IMG/VR virus record: IMGVR_UViG_3300042448_002584
Coordinates: 1 to 24,841 of that record
DNA length: 24,841 nucleotides
Origin: a virus
Reading direction: 5' to 3' (one strand)
Each line of letters begins with the position of its first letter. Within the stretch, counting starts at the first letter, position 1. This document shows, piece by piece, positions 4,434 through 21,414 of the stretch. A model generated the notes under the pieces. That model did not search any database, had not been told where the DNA came from, and worked only from the letters and a program-made list of their open reading frames with translations. The position numbers and the translations under genes are program-made.

Positions 4434-5237
4434 TTAAATGTTTTTAAAGCCGGCAAAGTGCGTAATAAAATGCTTGCCTGAAGCAGCATTCTTATTTACA
4501 AATACTTTATCAAAATTTGCGTGAAAGATTTCCATCATTTCGGCAAATTTGCTTTCGCGATCCTTACCCGTTAACCATGAATAGTGAAAATGATATTCGA
4601 TTATTGCTAATCTGATGTTGGACCAATCTGTGATTGCTTTGACCATATCATACTCCATGCCTTCGATATCCATCTTGATTGCAGTTACTCCACGTAACGC
4701 ATCATTAATATTGATTGCAGGTACAGACGTTGTTGCTCGACCTTTGATTGGATGGACAGAGTGTTTGCCTGAGTCCTGTGATAAAAAGAAATCAACTGAT
4801 TCCTGATCGTCATGTACTAGTGCTTTTTCGATTATTTCGCAACGATCAGCTACTCCATTCAACTCAATATTACGCTGAGCAAAATCAACATTATTTCTAA
4901 AAGGTTCGTAACTATATACTTTTTTTACTTTTGGAAACTGAGTCAGTAATCTAGTTGCAAAGATTCCAATGTGACCACCGGCATCTAACCAAACGTCCTC
5001 TTGATTAAGATCGTCCAAGGTTAGGATGTTACCATCTGCTGCAAAATGCGGAGTAAATAGCGGTTTAAAATACTCGCCACCGGTTGGCTTAATCGAGATA
5101 TTTTGAGAAACATTGAATTTGATCTCGTCTTCGGAGCGAACTACGAATTCATATTCATGATATTTGGTTTTCTTCTTAAAAGTTCGTAATTCTCCAGAAG
5201 CTAGGGCTTCATCATATGAAGACAGGACATTTGACAT
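4434..5237 (-). CDS. FkbM-family SAM-dependent methyltransferase
   Basis: A protein of 267 residues from the ATG at 5235-5237. The Rossmann methyltransferase core is clear. SAM-binding motif I is VWLDAGGHIG at residues 82-91. An acidic strand end (YSYEPF) follows near residue 111. The FkbM signature KMDIEGMEYD lies at 188-197 and IIEYHFHYSW follows. The family methylates hydroxyls on sugars and polyketides, so O-methylation of a glycan is the likely reaction. It is the first gene of a two-gene unit with the glycosyltransferase-like gene. Unlike most unit-leading genes here it has no perfect ATAAATAA element. Instead AGTATAATAGC lies 22 bases upstream, as it also does before the tmRNA. Family is confident; the substrate is unknown. 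Confidence 0.9.
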   Translation of the reverse strand: MSNVLSSYDEALASGELRTFKKKTKYHEYEFVVRSEDEIKFNVSQNISIKPTGGEYFKPLFTPHFAADGNILTLDDLNQEDVWLDAGGHIGIFATRLLTQFPKVKKVYSYEPFRNNVDFAQRNIELNGVADRCEIIEKALVHDDQESVDFFLSQDSGKHSVHPIKGRATTSVPAININDALRGVTAIKMDIEGMEYDMVKAITDWSNIRLAIIEYHFHYSWLTGKDRESKFAEMMEIFHANFDKVFVNKNAASGKHFITHFAGFKNI

Positions 5238-5272: not shown

Positions 5273-5536
5273 TTATTTGTCTTTCTGGTTTAAAATTGGA
5301 CTAGAATCTTTTAATGTAACATGCTGCAATTTCGGTTGAAACTGTAAATCGGCTGCCGACTTTTTAACAAAAGAAAACGGTACCTCAGAAGAAGTACCGT
5401 CGTCAAATAATATTAAATATGTGTCTAGGTTAACTGCTGTAATCTTTCCAAGCTTACCGTCCTTTAAAATTACTCTGGTTCCAACATTAAATTTCTTACC
5501 AGTTGTGATCAGAAGCTCTTCGGATTCAGTTAGGCC
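5273..5536 (-). CDS. Startless reading frame after the 512-residue gene; possible -1 frameshift extension with SH3/KOW-like domain
   Basis: This frame is open for 87 codons and ends with TAA at 5273-5275, but has no ATG, GTG or TTG before its last quarter. It overlaps the end of the 512-residue gene in the -1 frame exactly at TCT AAA AAA AAG GCC TAA, where A AAA AAG is a canonical -1 slippery heptamer within eight A (5537-5544). Slippage would replace the final KA-stop by GLTESEELLITTG and so on, giving a fusion of about 598 residues. The extension contains VGTRVILKDGKLGKI and YLILFDDGTSSEV, a strand pattern like a small SH3/KOW barrel. Alternatives are a one-base assembly error in the poly-A, or initiation at a non-standard codon such as CTG. 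The protein-like composition argues against chance. The mechanism is inferred. Confidence 0.6.
   Translation of the reverse strand, partial: GLTESEELLITTGKKFNVGTRVILKDGKLGKITAVNLDTYLILFDDGTSSEVPFSFVKKSAADLQFQPKLQHVTLKDSSPILNQKDK
5367..5400 (-). terminator. Possible intrinsic terminator hairpin inside the startless frame
   Basis: On the minus strand ACGGTAC and GTACCGT form a perfect 7-bp stem with a 10-base loop, followed by TTTTCTTTT. It would lie about 130 bases after the end of the 512-residue gene. Because the same bases read well as protein (DDGTSSEVPFSF), it may be chance or may limit readthrough. Confidence 0.3.
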
Positions 5537-7068
5537 TTTTTTTTAGACTGATCAAGCGTGATATACTGGCTCTTTAACGAATTTACATTCTTTTCTAGAG
5601 CTAGTTTCAATTCTCCAAGTTTGTCAGAATAGTCTTCGTTAACTGATGCAGTTGCTAAAGCCTCATCAATTGATTTGATAGAACTTTCAAGTTTTTCAAT
5701 GTTCTTTTCGATTCTAGCTTTTTCTGAATCAACGTTCTTATTAAATTCTGCGCTTTCTTCAAGTTGGATTGAGTATAATTCAGTCACATCATACTGGAAG
5801 TTTTCCATTACATAATTATGAAATGTTGTACCTTCCATCTTTTTGATTGTTCTAGTTTGACCAAGTTTCTCAAATACGAATAGTGATTCGTTTACTGTGA
5901 ATACGTATGCGTCGTTTCCAAGTCTTTCATTGATTAATCTTTTTGCAAAATCTAAGTGTGCAATGTTTTCAAGGTTAGATAGGACTTTAGCGATATTTGT
6001 GCGAGTTTCAACTGATTCCATTACAAAGATTTCGGATACATTTGCAGAAGCTGCATCTTCAATCGATTTACCGTTTACTGTAAACTGTAAACTATTTTCG
6101 TGTAGCTCAAATCCGACAGTCATTGTCTTTAATTTGGCAGTATAGTTATTACCTGTGTGAGAGAAGCCTAGAGCATTGAGAGCTTCATACATTTCAAAGA
6201 ATTCTGGATACTCAGCTTCAACTTTTTCTGATTCGATTTGAACTGGTGCTTCTTCAGTTGATAGTTTAACAAAGCTATTATCAACTACTGTTACCACTTC
6301 ATTCTCAGAAATTGCTAAATACGGTAGAACTACTGAATTAACTTGAGCGTCTCCATTACCGATACCGATGTTGAATGTGCCAGCTGAACGTGCTTCAACC
6401 ATGCTTAGAGTATTAACTAGACGGTTAACGATTGGCATGTTTACCTTACCACGAAGCTTCATCTTTAATGAATCAGACGTAATCGTTCCTTCCAATAGGC
6501 ACTCTTCCAAGATTGAACAAGCTTCTTTGTAAATTACTGGACTAGCTTGACGCATTTCGTGAACAGCATTCATAATCTCAAACTTAGAACGGTTTTGTTC
6601 GAGATGAGAAGATACATCAGCTAATGCTTCAGAAACTGCTGGATCATATGCGTATTTAGATAGACCTGAAATAAAGTGAGAAATCATTCTGAATTCTGGC
6701 TGAGTATTTAGACCGCTCTCTAAAATAGCTAGAGTGTGTCTGAATACTGGGTCAGTCGCTAGAGCACTTTCTTGCAAGGCTTTAACCTTTGTTGCAAGGT
6801 CAGCTGATCCAGACATGTCCTTTAATTTTTTAGCAGGCGTATTAGCTAAGCTCTTGAATTTAGCAACGACTTCTTTTAGAGATTCGTTAGCAGTTGATTC
6901 AGAAAGCTGAGTTAATGTATTTAGAGCATTTTCGAATACCTCCGCTGGAGATACTCCCAATAGAATAGAGTTGTTAATTGATTCAACTACCATTTTAGTG
7001 GTAATTGCATCCTTTACACTCACATTAGAGTTTAGCTCGTTTACTAGTTCTTGGATAAGGCCGTTCAT
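5530..7068 (-). CDS. Unassigned 512-residue phage protein, helical with C-terminal coiled coil
   Basis: It starts at the ATG at 7066-7068 behind a strong AAGAAGGA ribosome binding site, with two late-promoter-like elements further upstream. Residues 1-215 are mostly helical (ELVNELNSNVSVKDA, SHLEQNRSKFEIM). Residues 225-400 look alpha/beta. From about residue 440 there is a charged coiled coil (KARIEKNIEKLESSIKSI) that ends in KKKA. The stop codon comes directly after a run of eight A, a good -1 frameshift site that would append an 87-residue SH3/KOW-like domain. The strong initiation signals imply abundant synthesis, as for a structural or scaffolding protein. I recognise no known family. 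Confidence 0.8.
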   Translation of the reverse strand: MNGLIQELVNELNSNVSVKDAITTKMVVESINNSILLGVSPAEVFENALNTLTQLSESTANESLKEVVAKFKSLANTPAKKLKDMSGSADLATKVKALQESALATDPVFRHTLAILESGLNTQPEFRMISHFISGLSKYAYDPAVSEALADVSSHLEQNRSKFEIMNAVHEMRQASPVIYKEACSILEECLLEGTITSDSLKMKLRGKVNMPIVNRLVNTLSMVEARSAGTFNIGIGNGDAQVNSVVLPYLAISENEVVTVVDNSFVKLSTEEAPVQIESEKVEAEYPEFFEMYEALNALGFSHTGNNYTAKLKTMTVGFELHENSLQFTVNGKSIEDAASANVSEIFVMESVETRTNIAKVLSNLENIAHLDFAKRLINERLGNDAYVFTVNESLFVFEKLGQTRTIKKMEGTTFHNYVMENFQYDVTELYSIQLEESAEFNKNVDSEKARIEKNIEKLESSIKSIDEALATASVNEDYSDKLGELKLALEKNVNSLKSQYITLDQSKKKA

Positions 7069-15095: not shown

Positions 15096-15722
15096 TTATA
15101 GAAATTCTTTTAGTCTGTCCTTGAATTCTGGATTCTTTTCTAGGACTTGATCTCTAAGCATTTTTCTGGCCTTACGAATTTTAGTCTTGACAGTGTTCAG
15201 ATTCATATCGTATTTTTCAGCCAGATCATTACCTTTCATGTGATTGAGTTCTTTGTCAATTAGGATTGACTTTTCAATACAGTCAGGTAGAGTGGTCATC
15301 ATACGTAGAGTCTCAACATAGAGAGATTCAATGTAAGTTTCCTTTTCTAGGACAAAGCCTGAGTCGTCCGGTCGATCTACTTTATTTTCAACGTCATCCA
15401 ATCTGACTGCAAATTGAGTTCTCATTTTGTGCTGATGCAACAGGGACTCGTTCTTGGCAATCGTATAGATCCACGTAGTAAATCTAAATTTATCACTGTA
15501 TGATTCAATGCTCTTGAATATTTTGTACAGTGTGTTGTGCAGAACCTCTTCAGTAGGTTCAGTATCGTTAAAGAACTTCCAAATAAAGTACTTTAACTTC
15601 GGGTACATGATTGACGCTAGTCTATTTCTATCTCTCTCGGAGTAATCGCCGCTTTTGATTTTCTCAGCAAGCGACTGCATCTCATCATTTAATTGGCGGT
15701 TTAATTGGTCGTAAGTGCTCAT
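15096..15722 (-). CDS. ECF-type sigma-70 family RNA polymerase sigma factor
   Basis: A protein of 208 residues from the ATG at 15720-15722. Region 2 spans about residues 38-104, with the core/-10 recognition signature EEVLHNTLYKIFKSIESY then KFRFTTWIYTIAKNE. Region 4 spans about 145-190, ending in a helix-turn-helix GNDLAEKYDMNLNTVKTKI-RKARKML. This two-domain layout is that of ECF sigma factors, rather than the highly diverged T4 gp55, though both direct RNA polymerase to phage promoters. Its most likely targets are the ATAAATAA elements that precede late genes in this window. It lies 9 bases after PhoH and 2 bases before a membrane protein gene. Family is confident; the regulon is inferred. 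Confidence 0.9.
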   Translation of the reverse strand: MSTYDQLNRQLNDEMQSLAEKIKSGDYSERDRNRLASIMYPKLKYFIWKFFNDTEPTEEVLHNTLYKIFKSIESYSDKFRFTTWIYTIAKNESLLHQHKMRTQFAVRLDDVENKVDRPDDSGFVLEKETYIESLYVETLRMMTTLPDCIEKSILIDKELNHMKGNDLAEKYDMNLNTVKTKIRKARKMLRDQVLEKNPEFKDRLKEFL

Positions 15723-15731
15723 TTAGTTAAT

Positions 15732-16460
15732 TTACCTAAGAAATGTATGATTTGGATTCTCATTTTTCCATTGTTCATATCTTTCGGTGATTTCAACTAA
15801 AATTTTATTTCGAACAATATCGGAATCCTTAAATTGGTGAACTCCAACGCCTTTTACTCCGGAAACAAGTTTGATAAAATCAGGTAAAGCTACCTTATTT
15901 TTTGAAATATCATATTGGCTGACATCGCCACAAATGAGAACTTTAGAGTCCTTACCCAGTCTAGTCAAAAAGAGCATCAGTTGCTTAAAATCAGCATTCT
16001 GAGCCTCGTCTAAAATCATAAAGGCATTATCAAAAGTTGCACCTCTCATGTACGCTAATGGTCTAAATTCTATGATACCGGTTCCTTCTAACCAGTCAAC
16101 GACGTTTTCGTCATGTAATAATTTTACCATATTCGAGCGATAACTTTCCATAAATGGATCAATTTTATCCTTAATTTCTCCAGGTAAAAAACCGAGCTTT
16201 TCGCCAGATTCTTGGATAGGCTTGGACAGGATAATTTTTGAGATTGATCCGCTCAAATACAGTCGTAGAGCCGCATAACACGCGGTGAATGTTTTACTGG
16301 TGCCAGCTGGGCCAAAACAAAAGGCAATTTCACTATTTAGAATTGTATCAAAATATTGCTTTTGGCTTTCATTTAGAACGACCTGTCTCAGGTCAGATTG
16401 TGATAGTTCGAGCGTTTTTGAATTACGTCTTGGCGGTTGTTTCTTTGGTCTAGTCGGCAT
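15732..16460 (-). CDS. phoH: PhoH-family ATPase
   Basis: A protein of 242 residues from the ATG at 16458-16460. Walker A is GPAGTSKT at residues 50-57 and Walker B is FMILDEAQ at 147-154, with the PhoH hallmarks SKPIQESGEKLGFLPG at 79-94 and LICGDVSQYD at 175-184. PhoH proteins are P-loop ATPases common in large phages and are thought to act in RNA metabolism or phosphate-stress responses; their phage role is not settled. It overlaps the upstream small gene by 11 bases. The N-terminal 15 residues are Lys/Arg/Pro-rich, consistent with nucleic-acid contact. There is no additional PIN domain, so this is the short phage form. Confidence 0.95.
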   Translation of the reverse strand: MPTRPKKQPPRRNSKTLELSQSDLRQVVLNESQKQYFDTILNSEIAFCFGPAGTSKTFTACYAALRLYLSGSISKIILSKPIQESGEKLGFLPGEIKDKIDPFMESYRSNMVKLLHDENVVDWLEGTGIIEFRPLAYMRGATFDNAFMILDEAQNADFKQLMLFLTRLGKDSKVLICGDVSQYDISKNKVALPDFIKLVSGVKGVGVHQFKDSDIVRNKILVEITERYEQWKNENPNHTFLR

Positions 16461-16735: not shown

Positions 16736-18688
16736 TTATGAATTTCCGTAAAAATATCCCAACATTCTCTTATACTCAGAAACTGAATCTGGATCTAATG
16801 CAGTTTTAACTTTAGGCTGCCCAACCGATGGTGTGGAGTTTAGTGCTCGCAGCTCGCCAAAATCAAAGCCTGTATCCAACGTCAAATATGCTTGATCTAG
16901 TATTTTTTCGTGAACTTCTTTCAAAAAAGCCGGATCTACTCTCTCCAATTCTTCGTTTGCAATTTCCCAAAAGTTAGGTGATTCAAAGAAGGCTGAGGTG
17001 TTTACGCAAGTTATTGCCAAGTCGTCATTACCGCTCTGGCTGCGATAAGTACCGTTAGTCGATTTACCGAATGAGCCCAGTTCATGGACTGTTCGGAATT
17101 CGTTCGGTAGAATTCGGTTTGTGCCAGAAATGTATTTGTAGCGCTCACAATACTTTGATTTGTTAGTTATAGTTAGCTTTAGTCCAGGTTTAAAACCTTT
17201 CATTGCTTCAGTATGCTTAGAATGAATTAACTGACCAGGCCAATATTGCTCGGTATTTGTGATTCGATCTAATACATATTCGCCTTTGTGGTTTAACTCA
17301 ATCAAGAGTCTAACTTTATCTGGATTAAACACCGAATACGTTAATTTTTCAAGTGAATTACAGAACTCATTAATGTCCTTAGTATTGGTTCGAAGAGCCG
17401 CTACTTGAATGAGGCCAAATATGTCTGTTTCATCTTTCACAAAGTCCTTCACGCCCATTAACATTTTAATCGGTAATGTGGTGAATTTAAAGACATTTAT
17501 TACTGAATAGTCTTTACCCACGCCGTCTGCCGTATCAACTGAAAAGATATAATAATTACCATCATTTCTAATATCATCTGGTGTGAGCTTTGCAAAGTTA
17601 GGATGTGCCATAAACTCATCAAACAACTCATTAACTGAGGGATCCTGGCACCATTCAGGTTGAACGTATTGGGTCCTTAGATTGAATATCTTTTTAAGAT
17701 CCTTTGATGATAGCAATAACTTATCAGAAGAGAAGAATTGTAGACCATATTCCTGGTTAAAGTCTTCCTCTGAACCCAAGTTTGCAATTGTCATCTTCTT
17801 CCATTCATCATCTCTACCTGGTACTTGCCACCAGTCCACACGCAATGGCACATAAGCATTTTTGCCCTCAACTGCATCCATGTAAATTTCATAGAAACGG
17901 TTCATTCCGTTTGGTGTCGAGGTTATGATGACTTTTGAATTTGACATCGATGAAATAGTCGGATAGATCGCTCGATAAAAGAAATCTAAATATGCTGGAT
18001 TGATGTGAGCAAACTCGTCAATATAGAGCAGGTGAATTGTAAAACCAATACCTGTATTTTTGGTGGTAGTTCTACCAATCAAACGACAGCCATTATCGAA
18101 CTTCATTGACAAGACGTTATTTGATACACAGCCTGGCTTGAGGAAGAACGGCAAGTTTTCAAAAATTGATTTGATCTTATCGACAACCTCTTTTGTTGTT
18201 GATGCAACGTTAGCAACTGCCAACACGTTTTTATCTGCATGGAAAGTTAGGAACCAGGCAATGAATACTCCGGACATTACAGTTTTACCAATCTGACGAG
18301 ATGCCATTAGGATATTGAATCGATTGGCCTTGAAAGAACCGATAATTTCTTCCTGATAGTCTCTTAGTTCAATAATGTCAATGCCATTTTCGGTCATGAC
18401 TTGACAGTATTTGTTTGCAAAGTAGACTGGATCAGCCTTACACTTTGCAATTTCGTCCATCTCTTCAGGCGTGTACTCAAAAACGAGGTTAGCCTTTTTC
18501 CAAGCTGGATCGTTATCTTTAAATGGCGAGTTTTTGACAGTTTTAATGTCAATTAGTCCATTCTCAAAATCTTCCAATAGTTTATTAACCTTCTCTGAGG
18601 TCCAAATTGCATTTGACCCAGCGCCATCGTCCAAATTTGAGACTTTGGTTCTGGTTGAACCACCAGACGAAGTTATGAAATCTCTCAT
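16736..18688 (-). CDS. Terminase large subunit (T4 gp17-like)
   Basis: A protein of 650 residues from the ATG at 18686-18688, overlapping the upstream stop as ATGA. The packaging ATPase domain has Walker A MASRQIGKT at residues 128-136, Walker B HLLYIDEF at 219-226 and the coupling motif ITSTPNG at 255-261. The C-terminal RNase-H-fold nuclease begins near residue 380 with FSVDTADGVGKDYSV (Asp385 a likely metal ligand) and continues through LLIELNHKGEY. The protein translocates DNA into the prohead and cuts concatemers. Its length is near that of T4 gp17 (610 residues). The presumed small subunit is immediately upstream. This is one of the firmest calls in the window. Confidence 0.97.
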   Translation of the reverse strand: MRDFITSSGGSTRTKVSNLDDGAGSNAIWTSEKVNKLLEDFENGLIDIKTVKNSPFKDNDPAWKKANLVFEYTPEEMDEIAKCKADPVYFANKYCQVMTENGIDIIELRDYQEEIIGSFKANRFNILMASRQIGKTVMSGVFIAWFLTFHADKNVLAVANVASTTKEVVDKIKSIFENLPFFLKPGCVSNNVLSMKFDNGCRLIGRTTTKNTGIGFTIHLLYIDEFAHINPAYLDFFYRAIYPTISSMSNSKVIITSTPNGMNRFYEIYMDAVEGKNAYVPLRVDWWQVPGRDDEWKKMTIANLGSEEDFNQEYGLQFFSSDKLLLSSKDLKKIFNLRTQYVQPEWCQDPSVNELFDEFMAHPNFAKLTPDDIRNDGNYYIFSVDTADGVGKDYSVINVFKFTTLPIKMLMGVKDFVKDETDIFGLIQVAALRTNTKDINEFCNSLEKLTYSVFNPDKVRLLIELNHKGEYVLDRITNTEQYWPGQLIHSKHTEAMKGFKPGLKLTITNKSKYCERYKYISGTNRILPNEFRTVHELGSFGKSTNGTYRSQSGNDDLAITCVNTSAFFESPNFWEIANEELERVDPAFLKEVHEKILDQAYLTLDTGFDFGELRALNSTPSVGQPKVKTALDPDSVSEYKRMLGYFYGNS

Positions 18689-19704: not shown

Positions 19705-21414
19705 TTAATTTAAGTTATATGAAGTGATGCTTTTTCTAGGTACTCTCTTTTTGATTTGAATATTGAGAGCTCCAAGCTTGGTGTCAGATAGGCCTTCTGC
19801 ATAAGTATTACCTTTGCTGTCAGACCAACCGCCACGAATAACTGGAAATTCATCCAGTCCAATAATAATATCGTTAAATTCATCTAATCCGATCGGCGAG
19901 GCAGTCGGATCCGCTTTGAGTGAAATTTCATTCTTTTCGCTAAGGATACTGATATTAACTGAATCAACTCCGTTAACTCCTTCGATTACCTTAATTAGAT
20001 CGCTCTTTGGTACACGGTCCTGACGCTTAAGATCGATAAAGTATTTACCGAGTACGTCGACGATATCGGATTTAACAATTTCTGGTGCAATATCATCGAA
20101 TGCAATGATACTTACAAATATCACATATTTTGAAATGGTTGGATCAACGATTTGAATATCTGTTGAAATCATCTTTGTACCTGACCGCTCAATGTATTTT
20201 AGGAGCTCGTTCTTTTGGAATTGACTTAACTTAAATTTAGAAGTCGGTAGGTTGAAGTAGTCTTCGCCGCTCTTGAATAGTTTGGCAACATTTGGTACCA
20301 AGAATAAATTGATCATACGGCTGTCCAGGATTGTGCCGTTTGCGTCTTGCGGCAGATAAACTTTAATCGTTGAAAACATCTGCATTTTTCTAAGCAGCAC
20401 TTCATAGTTGTCAACGTTAACCAGTGCAAAGTTTTTGCTCGCTTTTGGTGCAATCAATTTAGTCAACTCAAGATTTTCGGGATCAACTCCAAAATTCGGA
20501 GGAGAAACTGTGAAAATATCAAAGTAGTCATTCATATTAATGTCTTCGCCGGTTGGTGCAAATGCTGTGTCCTGGAAAGTAAACTGAATTTGACTAGGAT
20601 CGTCAACTTTAATGTTGCCTGAACTGCCATCAGTTGTTAAGTACTCAACGATAATTTCGGAACCAGCATCTGGAATTAGTCCAAAATTGCCATTGCCGAA
20701 ATAGAGATCAACTCCGTTTGTAATACCAGTTCTGCACAGGAAGCCTTTACCATTTCTTGGAATATCTAGCAGCGATTCATATTTTGTCCACTTTTCTCCA
20801 TTGACATAAATATTAATCATAAAGTTATCAATATAGAAGTTGTTGGGATAACCTAACTGAAACGAATCGAAGGCTTGACCCTTTGCGGTAAAAGTTTGAC
20901 TCTCAATAATTCCCTGTCTTAAGCTAAACACATTTTCTCCAGTTTCGCCAGTTAAGGCTAATCTGATTTCGTCTTGTGGCAGCTCCATTACGTAGATTAA
21001 ACCGTTTTGTGTACACTTTAATCTAAATAAGTTATTTAAGATTGCTTTTGATGCTGGCAATTCAGCGGCATTTAGATTTGGTTTTCTAACTACTCTAACT
21101 TGAGCAGTTGCACCAATTGCACGGCTTGGGTTGTGGCCGGCGATTGCGGCAAGCGAATAGATTGAGCTCGCTCTAGAAGCCTCATTTAAGTTTAATTCAG
21201 TAATCGCATCCTCAATGTAGTAGAAAATCAGTTGACTTAGGTTCTCAAATACAATCAGGAGCTGACCATATGGAGAAGCTGCAGTAAAAACTGATCTACT
21301 CTGTTTAAAACGATCTTGCAGAAACTGTAGAGTTTCTGATAGAATATCACGGATGTTAATTCGAAGACTTGTAAATAACTTGTAATTCGAATTTTGACTA
21401 GACAATTCTGCCAT
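19705..21414 (-). CDS. Baseplate wedge protein, gp6/gpJ-like
   Basis: A protein of 569 residues from the ATG at 21412-21414, with AAGAAG just upstream and an ATAAATAA element 18 bases away. The N-terminal helices (SRSVFTAASPYGQLLIVFE, LSQLIFYYIEDAI, EASRASSIYSLAAIAGH) match the start of gp6/baseplate-J proteins. Beta-rich domains make up the middle. Near residues 445-500 comes the typical J-family C-terminal module: DVLGKYFIDLKRQDRVPKSD followed by LIKVIEGVNGVDSVNISIL. T4 gp6 (660 residues) forms the wedge dimers that ring the baseplate. It leads the minus-strand run that continues into the terminase genes. Family call is from pattern recognition. Confidence 0.8.
   Translation of the reverse strand: MAELSSQNSNYKLFTSLRINIRDILSETLQFLQDRFKQSRSVFTAASPYGQLLIVFENLSQLIFYYIEDAITELNLNEASRASSIYSLAAIAGHNPSRAIGATAQVRVVRKPNLNAAELPASKAILNNLFRLKCTQNGLIYVMELPQDEIRLALTGETGENVFSLRQGIIESQTFTAKGQAFDSFQLGYPNNFYIDNFMINIYVNGEKWTKYESLLDIPRNGKGFLCRTGITNGVDLYFGNGNFGLIPDAGSEIIVEYLTTDGSSGNIKVDDPSQIQFTFQDTAFAPTGEDINMNDYFDIFTVSPPNFGVDPENLELTKLIAPKASKNFALVNVDNYEVLLRKMQMFSTIKVYLPQDANGTILDSRMINLFLVPNVAKLFKSGEDYFNLPTSKFKLSQFQKNELLKYIERSGTKMISTDIQIVDPTISKYVIFVSIIAFDDIAPEIVKSDIVDVLGKYFIDLKRQDRVPKSDLIKVIEGVNGVDSVNISILSEKNEISLKADPTASPIGLDEFNDIIIGLDEFPVIRGGWSDSKGNTYAEGLSDTKLGALNIQIKKRVPRKSITSYNLN

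Follow-up and report, generated by a model that had tools for sequence, protein, structure and literature searches.

How can a reading frame be expressed when it has no start codon near its beginning and a stop codon bars entry from upstream? This question arises at the 3′ end of a 512-residue gene in the window, the whole stretch of 24,841 nucleotides analysed here (IMG/VR virus record IMGVR_UViG_3300042448_002584). The gene ends with TCT AAA AAA AAG GCC TAA, and an earlier note, made from the sequence alone, had suggested that a slippery heptamer in the A run extends this gene into an 87-codon frame in the -1 register. On re-reading the sequence, the gene end, the heptamer and their coordinates were all found to be correct (Table 1). 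Indeed, the -1 frame is open for 87 codons with codon 69 as its earliest ATG, GTG or TTG, whereas 8 and 9 stops interrupt the remaining two frames in this interval. The 512-residue ORF itself has a helical N-terminal part, a strand-rich middle and a C-terminal coiled coil at approximately residues 429–511.

Table 1. Positions of the frameshift gene, its slip site, its extension and selected neighbouring genes in the window.
Feature	Position	Strand	Basis or remark
Zero-frame gene, short form, 512 residues	5530..7068	minus	ORF list and conserved length in relatives
A run, n = 8 (A9 in most relatives)	5537..5544	minus	sequence and relatives
Slippery heptamer A_AAA_AAG	5536..5542	minus	register fits tandem -1 slippage
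Zero-frame stop TAA, one codon past slip site	5530..5532	minus	spacing same in all relatives (TAA or TGA)
-1 frame stop TAA, immediately 5′ of A run	5543..5545	minus	bars entry from upstream
-1 frame extension, 87 codons and stop	5273..5536	minus	open 5536–5276, stop 5275–5273
SH3/Tudor-like barrel (predicted), ∼residues 18–60 of extension	5357..5485	minus	structure model and fold matches
FkbM-type methyltransferase, next gene downstream of frameshift gene	4434–5237	minus	
Sigma-factor-like protein (phrog_1740) and adjoining PhoH-like protein	15096–15722 and 15732–16460	minus	just downstream of TerL
TerL	16736–18688		
Baseplate wedge protein	19705–21414		

Judging from the sequence, we propose with a probability of roughly 0.85 that programmed -1 slippage at this site gives rise to the 512-residue form and to a minor form of ∼598 residues. 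Most translation would stop at the TAA codon one codon past the A run and would yield the 512-residue protein. In a minority of cases, tandem slippage of tRNA-Lys on A_AAA_AAG would move the ribosome back by one base, upon which the slipped ribosomes would read the 87 further codons. The computed length of the resulting long form is 598 residues (511 + 87), and its SH3/Tudor-like barrel would be placed C-terminal to the coiled coil. The long form is presumably the minor product, and slippage on the A run is the only supported route into the -1 frame.

The 40 relatives of the gene comprised 39 IMG/VR loci and one MAG contig, with identities of 48–100%. Together with the window, the IMG/VR loci represented 27 distinct sequences, of which 24 representatives fell into ∼16 groups at <90% nucleotide identity. 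A scan of bacterial genomes gave one 254-kb contig, which came from a MAG named uncultured Bacteroidetes. The gene belongs to a large virus whose hosts are probably Bacteroidota. In 40 of 40 relatives the body was exactly 512 residues long, the zero-frame stop was located one codon past the slip site, and A8G or A9 was found at the same point, followed by an open and conserved -1 frame of 78 to 102 codons (L013 ends with its contig). A9 was present in every lineage except that of the window, whose clade has A8 followed by G. The earlier note had itself raised the possibility that the eight-A run hides a homopolymer error of sequencing or assembly, the true gene being one continuous frame. Some sequencing methods do make mistakes in homopolymers, but the same frame relation recurred with either A8G or A9 in 40 independently assembled loci, and nine loci of a single genotype were identical at the slip region. 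The independent assemblies exclude an error of this kind, to which we attach a negligible probability. Since the slip site and the hidden extension are conserved in every close relative found, they point to a programmed signal rather than to a sequencing error.

Conceivably, the tail could also be a gene of its own, for which ribosomes either reinitiate or use a non-standard start codon. Tail codon 8 is ATT, ATC or ATA in most relatives, and some have GTG or ATG from codon 11 onwards. The positions of these starts, however, differ between lineages, and the window has no start before codon 69. Furthermore, the interval from the -1 stop to the slip site contained no canonical start in the 24 representatives, and the start codon that the earlier note had considered for the downstream frame in homologues was absent from the close ones. 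The codons directly after the slip site are already conserved among the relatives, ahead of any such start, which argues that the -1 frame is translated from the slip site and not from a later start. Two separate genes would, in addition, give no reason for the freezing of the A run, and we consider this explanation very improbable.

Selection on the -1 frame was apparent from close pairs of sequences, in which its dN/dS was ∼0.02–0.23 as compared to 0.04–0.11 for the body. The upper value was that of the window versus L003 (0.23), the other measurable pairs ranging from 0.02 to 0.16, and in most close pairs the substitutions concentrate at third codon positions when read in the -1 frame. The -1 frame is accordingly under purifying selection. 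All 24 representatives encode the slip lysines by AAA AAA AAR. Eight other invariant lysine columns, in contrast, contain a mixture of AAA and AAG, which indicates a constraint on the slip codons that goes further than the amino acids they encode. The serine preceding the slip lysines is encoded by five different codons among the representatives.

The number of A≥8 runs expected in the coding sense was determined by codon shuffling. In the related genome G001 (271 kb) 2 such runs were observed versus 43.7 expected, a depletion of ∼20-fold, and in G002 (253 kb), also a relative, 5 versus 34.3, a depletion of ∼7-fold. The remote genome G006 (65 kb) had 4 runs versus 14.8 expected, so that the depletion across the three genomes ranged from 4- to 20-fold. 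In each of them, the sole coding-sense A9 is the end of the homologous gene. Taken with the retention of the run and the open frame in all 40 relatives and with the purifying selection on that frame, this scarcity places the arrangement far outside what chance would produce. The second A8 run of G001 lies at the end of ORF 122909–124018 and is followed by a -1 frame that is open for 114 codons; this candidate was rejected as a frameshift since its -1 frame is the next gene, whose own ATG overlaps the stop.

The same protein outcome could be reached if the RNA polymerase, rather than the ribosome, slipped on A8 or A9 and either added one A or dropped two. Bacterial genes employ this kind of transcriptional slippage (PMC5009743), and it would be in line with the presence of A9 in all lineages but that of the window, with the avoidance of long A runs elsewhere and with the lack of a conserved RNA stimulator. 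On the other hand, the window clade with its A8G combines a shorter run with a stronger ribosomal heptamer, and the ribosomal -1 register is preserved in every lineage. Transcriptional slippage thus strikes us as a somewhat unlikely but serious alternative, and slippage probably takes place in translation. The earlier claim of a short and a long form made by slippage is in this respect supported by the sequence, with the reservation that slippage in transcription would serve equally well. The ribosomal site of the window, A_AAA_AAG, is the highly shift-prone shift site of E. coli dnaX (PMC5009743). It does count against ribosomal slippage that most relatives have A_AAA_AAA, which in E. coli is ribosomally weaker than A_AAA_AAG. 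The sole tRNA-Lys of G001 has a UUU anticodon, a tRNA-Lys with a CUU anticodon being absent. The same genome (L042, L043 and L050) carries 26 tRNA genes for nearly all amino acids, as well as a tmRNA with the tag GNTNFWSLVNESVNAPVTEELLAA.

A downstream hairpin or pseudoknot that acts as a stimulator is usual for -1 frameshift sites, though not obligatory. No conserved downstream RNA structure was detected among the relatives (RNAalifold, 0 pairs), and the fold downstream of the slip site in the window had a z of ∼0. An 8-bp stem, GGACATTA / TAGTGTCC, is present ∼16 nt past the A run in L004, L007, L012, L017, L029, L033, L034 and L040. As a stimulator it was discounted, because it is confined to part of the A9 clade and is absent from the other subclades and from the window clade. 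The window clade, which lacks this stem, carries the stronger heptamer A_AAA_AAG.

What, then, would slippage add to the protein? The structure of the extension was modelled as a confident five-stranded barrel with its strands within residues 21–60, a core pLDDT of ∼90 and disordered ends. Its fold matches in the PDB were SH3-like barrels (Tudor, PWWP, Hfq, MscS and others) with modest E-values, and matches in Pfam were sub-threshold only. The extension is accordingly predicted with confidence to be an SH3-like small barrel, as the earlier note had read from the translation. A search of INPHARED (cultured phages) with the tail returned nothing useful, and no further copies of the tail domain were confirmed in a scan of IMG/VR.

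The body likewise found no match among the cultured phages of INPHARED. Sequence searches of PHROG, Pfam and PDB assigned it to no family, and a fold search of the PDB revealed nothing significant. A remote homologue with 21% identity was identified in IMG/VR (L101/L102), and hhalign aligned the body with L101 over 407 columns (probability 98.4, E 9.6e-15). In L101 a single ORF runs in frame beyond the coiled coil into FQVGDYVKVKESGNTGKIISVDSTSGSYTVLMDNG, and this segment matches the profile of the -1 tail (E 5.5e-7). Because of this in-frame match, the tail is regarded as a domain of the body's own protein family, attached in frame in the L101 lineage and via the slip in the lineage of the window.

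The in-frame barrel of L101 also means that the split state could be derived. It is in this sense that a fixed frameshift mutation has to be weighed, by which an ancestral gene with the barrel in frame was broken through an indel within the A run, slippage rescues some full-length protein and the short form has no role. A single further indel would rejoin the frame, yet the split persists among lineages whose synonymous divergence is saturated; moreover, the stop always lies one codon past the slip site and the slip codons are frozen. We consider a fixed mutation improbable, and programmed slippage the better explanation for the split.

Three further proteins relate to the body. LR756500.1, a 462-kb huge phage, encodes a one-ORF homologue of the body (hhalign, E 8.4e-8), the C-terminus of which is barrel-like, yet unconfirmed by comparison with the tail profile. 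With Foldseek, the body matched ORF-242 of Tenacibaculum phage PTm1 (E 4.6e-15) and BPT24_169 of Tenacibaculum phage pT24 (E 3.5e-9). PTm1 ORF-242 is linked to the body by fold only, no sequence link having been found, and contains neither the barrel nor the slip site. BPT24_169 (LC168164.1 144057–146867; L059:24058–26868) is annotated as ‘DNA ligase 1’, a label that is probably wrong, as its fold matches the family of the window gene. The N-terminus of BPT24_169 resembles a capsid-targeting sequence.

Some indication of the role of the protein comes from the genomic neighbourhood. The frameshift gene is part of a region of virion genes in a T4-type jumbo phage, TerL and a baseplate wedge protein being encoded nearby in the window. 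Relatives of this TerL include those of Sphingomonas phage PAU, Tenacibaculum phages and Lak phages. After the homologue, L101 encodes late sigma factor gp55, head closure gp4 and the portal. The head cluster of G001, which includes the capsid gene, is located ∼100 kb away from the homologue; the G001 homologue, too, is followed by an FkbM-type-like ORF (212 kb). The motif [LI]xE[SAG] is the site motif of the gp21-type prohead protease of T4. Its density in the homologous proteins reached a z of 3.1 in the window, 7.1 in L101, 7.6 in PTm1 and 7.8 in pT24, with 2.2 in LR756500 and 1.1 in G001, so that such sites were enriched in part of the homologues only. The core proteins of T4 are degraded by the prohead protease (PMC9958956). 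The odds seem even to us that the gene product serves head morphogenesis or is an internal head protein, in which case some of its copies would carry the barrel as a binding module. These barrel-tipped copies would then contact a partner that the short form does not. The gene does lie among head and packaging genes, but the ‘phage structural protein’ of the earlier note is likewise an inference.

At least 13 ORFs of G001 (L041–L054), for example 30276–30839, 52436–53767 and 218314–218784, start with F..F[VILT].E and encode otherwise unrelated proteins. This motif resembles the capsid-targeting/prohead-protease sequences of T4 and may mark a large set of head-packed proteins in G001.

The L101 gene (3979–6774, plus strand) itself ends in A9, reading TCA AAA AAA AAC TAA. 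After this run the -1 frame is open for ∼60 codons, which resemble the preceding in-frame acidic repeats. The end of the L101 gene may thus be another slip site of this family, and we treat this as a lead rather than a result; it is seen in one lineage, represented by two nearly identical contigs. More tentatively still, the jumbo-phage protein family might reuse A-run slippage at positions that shift between lineages, thereby setting the number of copies that receive each C-terminal module. If true, slippage would act in T4-type jumbo phages as a switch that sets the stoichiometry of a head-assembly protein.

The principle of adding C-terminal domains by frameshifting is already known in phages. 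Frameshift-derived C-terminal extensions have been described for structural proteins such as the major coat protein of T3/T7 and those of Lactobacillus phage A2 and Listeria phages A118, A500 and PSA, and they include Ig-like domains (PMC5009743). The assertion in the earlier note that no described phage structural protein has such an arrangement was therefore too strong. As in T3/T7, A2 and A118/A500/PSA, slippage near the end of the window gene would give a minor form with an added C-terminal domain. In contrast to these cases, the body belongs to an uncharacterised family and is neither a major capsid nor a tail shaft protein, and the predicted cargo is an SH3/Tudor-like barrel instead of an Ig-like domain. 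In the tail assembly chaperone G/GT of lambda, -1 slippage near the gene end similarly fuses a second domain to a minor share of the product. However, the window body of 512 residues is unrelated to it and a long A run takes the place of the lambda site. Nor does the frameshift gene have the position expected of G/GT, directly upstream of a tape measure gene: the next gene downstream is the FkbM-type methyltransferase. With E. coli dnaX the window shares an identical A_AAA_AAG heptamer (PMC5009743), but the dnaX shift leads to a shorter product, whereas that of the window would lead to a longer one and lacks a conserved RNA stimulator. Finally, the related bodies of L101/L102, LR756500.1, PTm1 ORF-242 and pT24 BPT24_169 have no slip site at the junction of body and tail.

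Measured against the open-access papers that were checked, the novelty lies in the protein family, in its barrel cargo, in the counterpart with the barrel in frame and in the possible second site. The case is conserved: an uncharacterised protein family of T4-type jumbo phages appears to use programmed slippage, and ordinary ORF calling misses the extra domain. The in-frame counterpart in L101 provides a natural comparison between constitutive and slippage-controlled addition of one domain. Likewise, the occurrence of A8G and A9 within one family allows ribosomal and transcriptional slippage to be compared directly, in hosts that are probably Bacteroidota.
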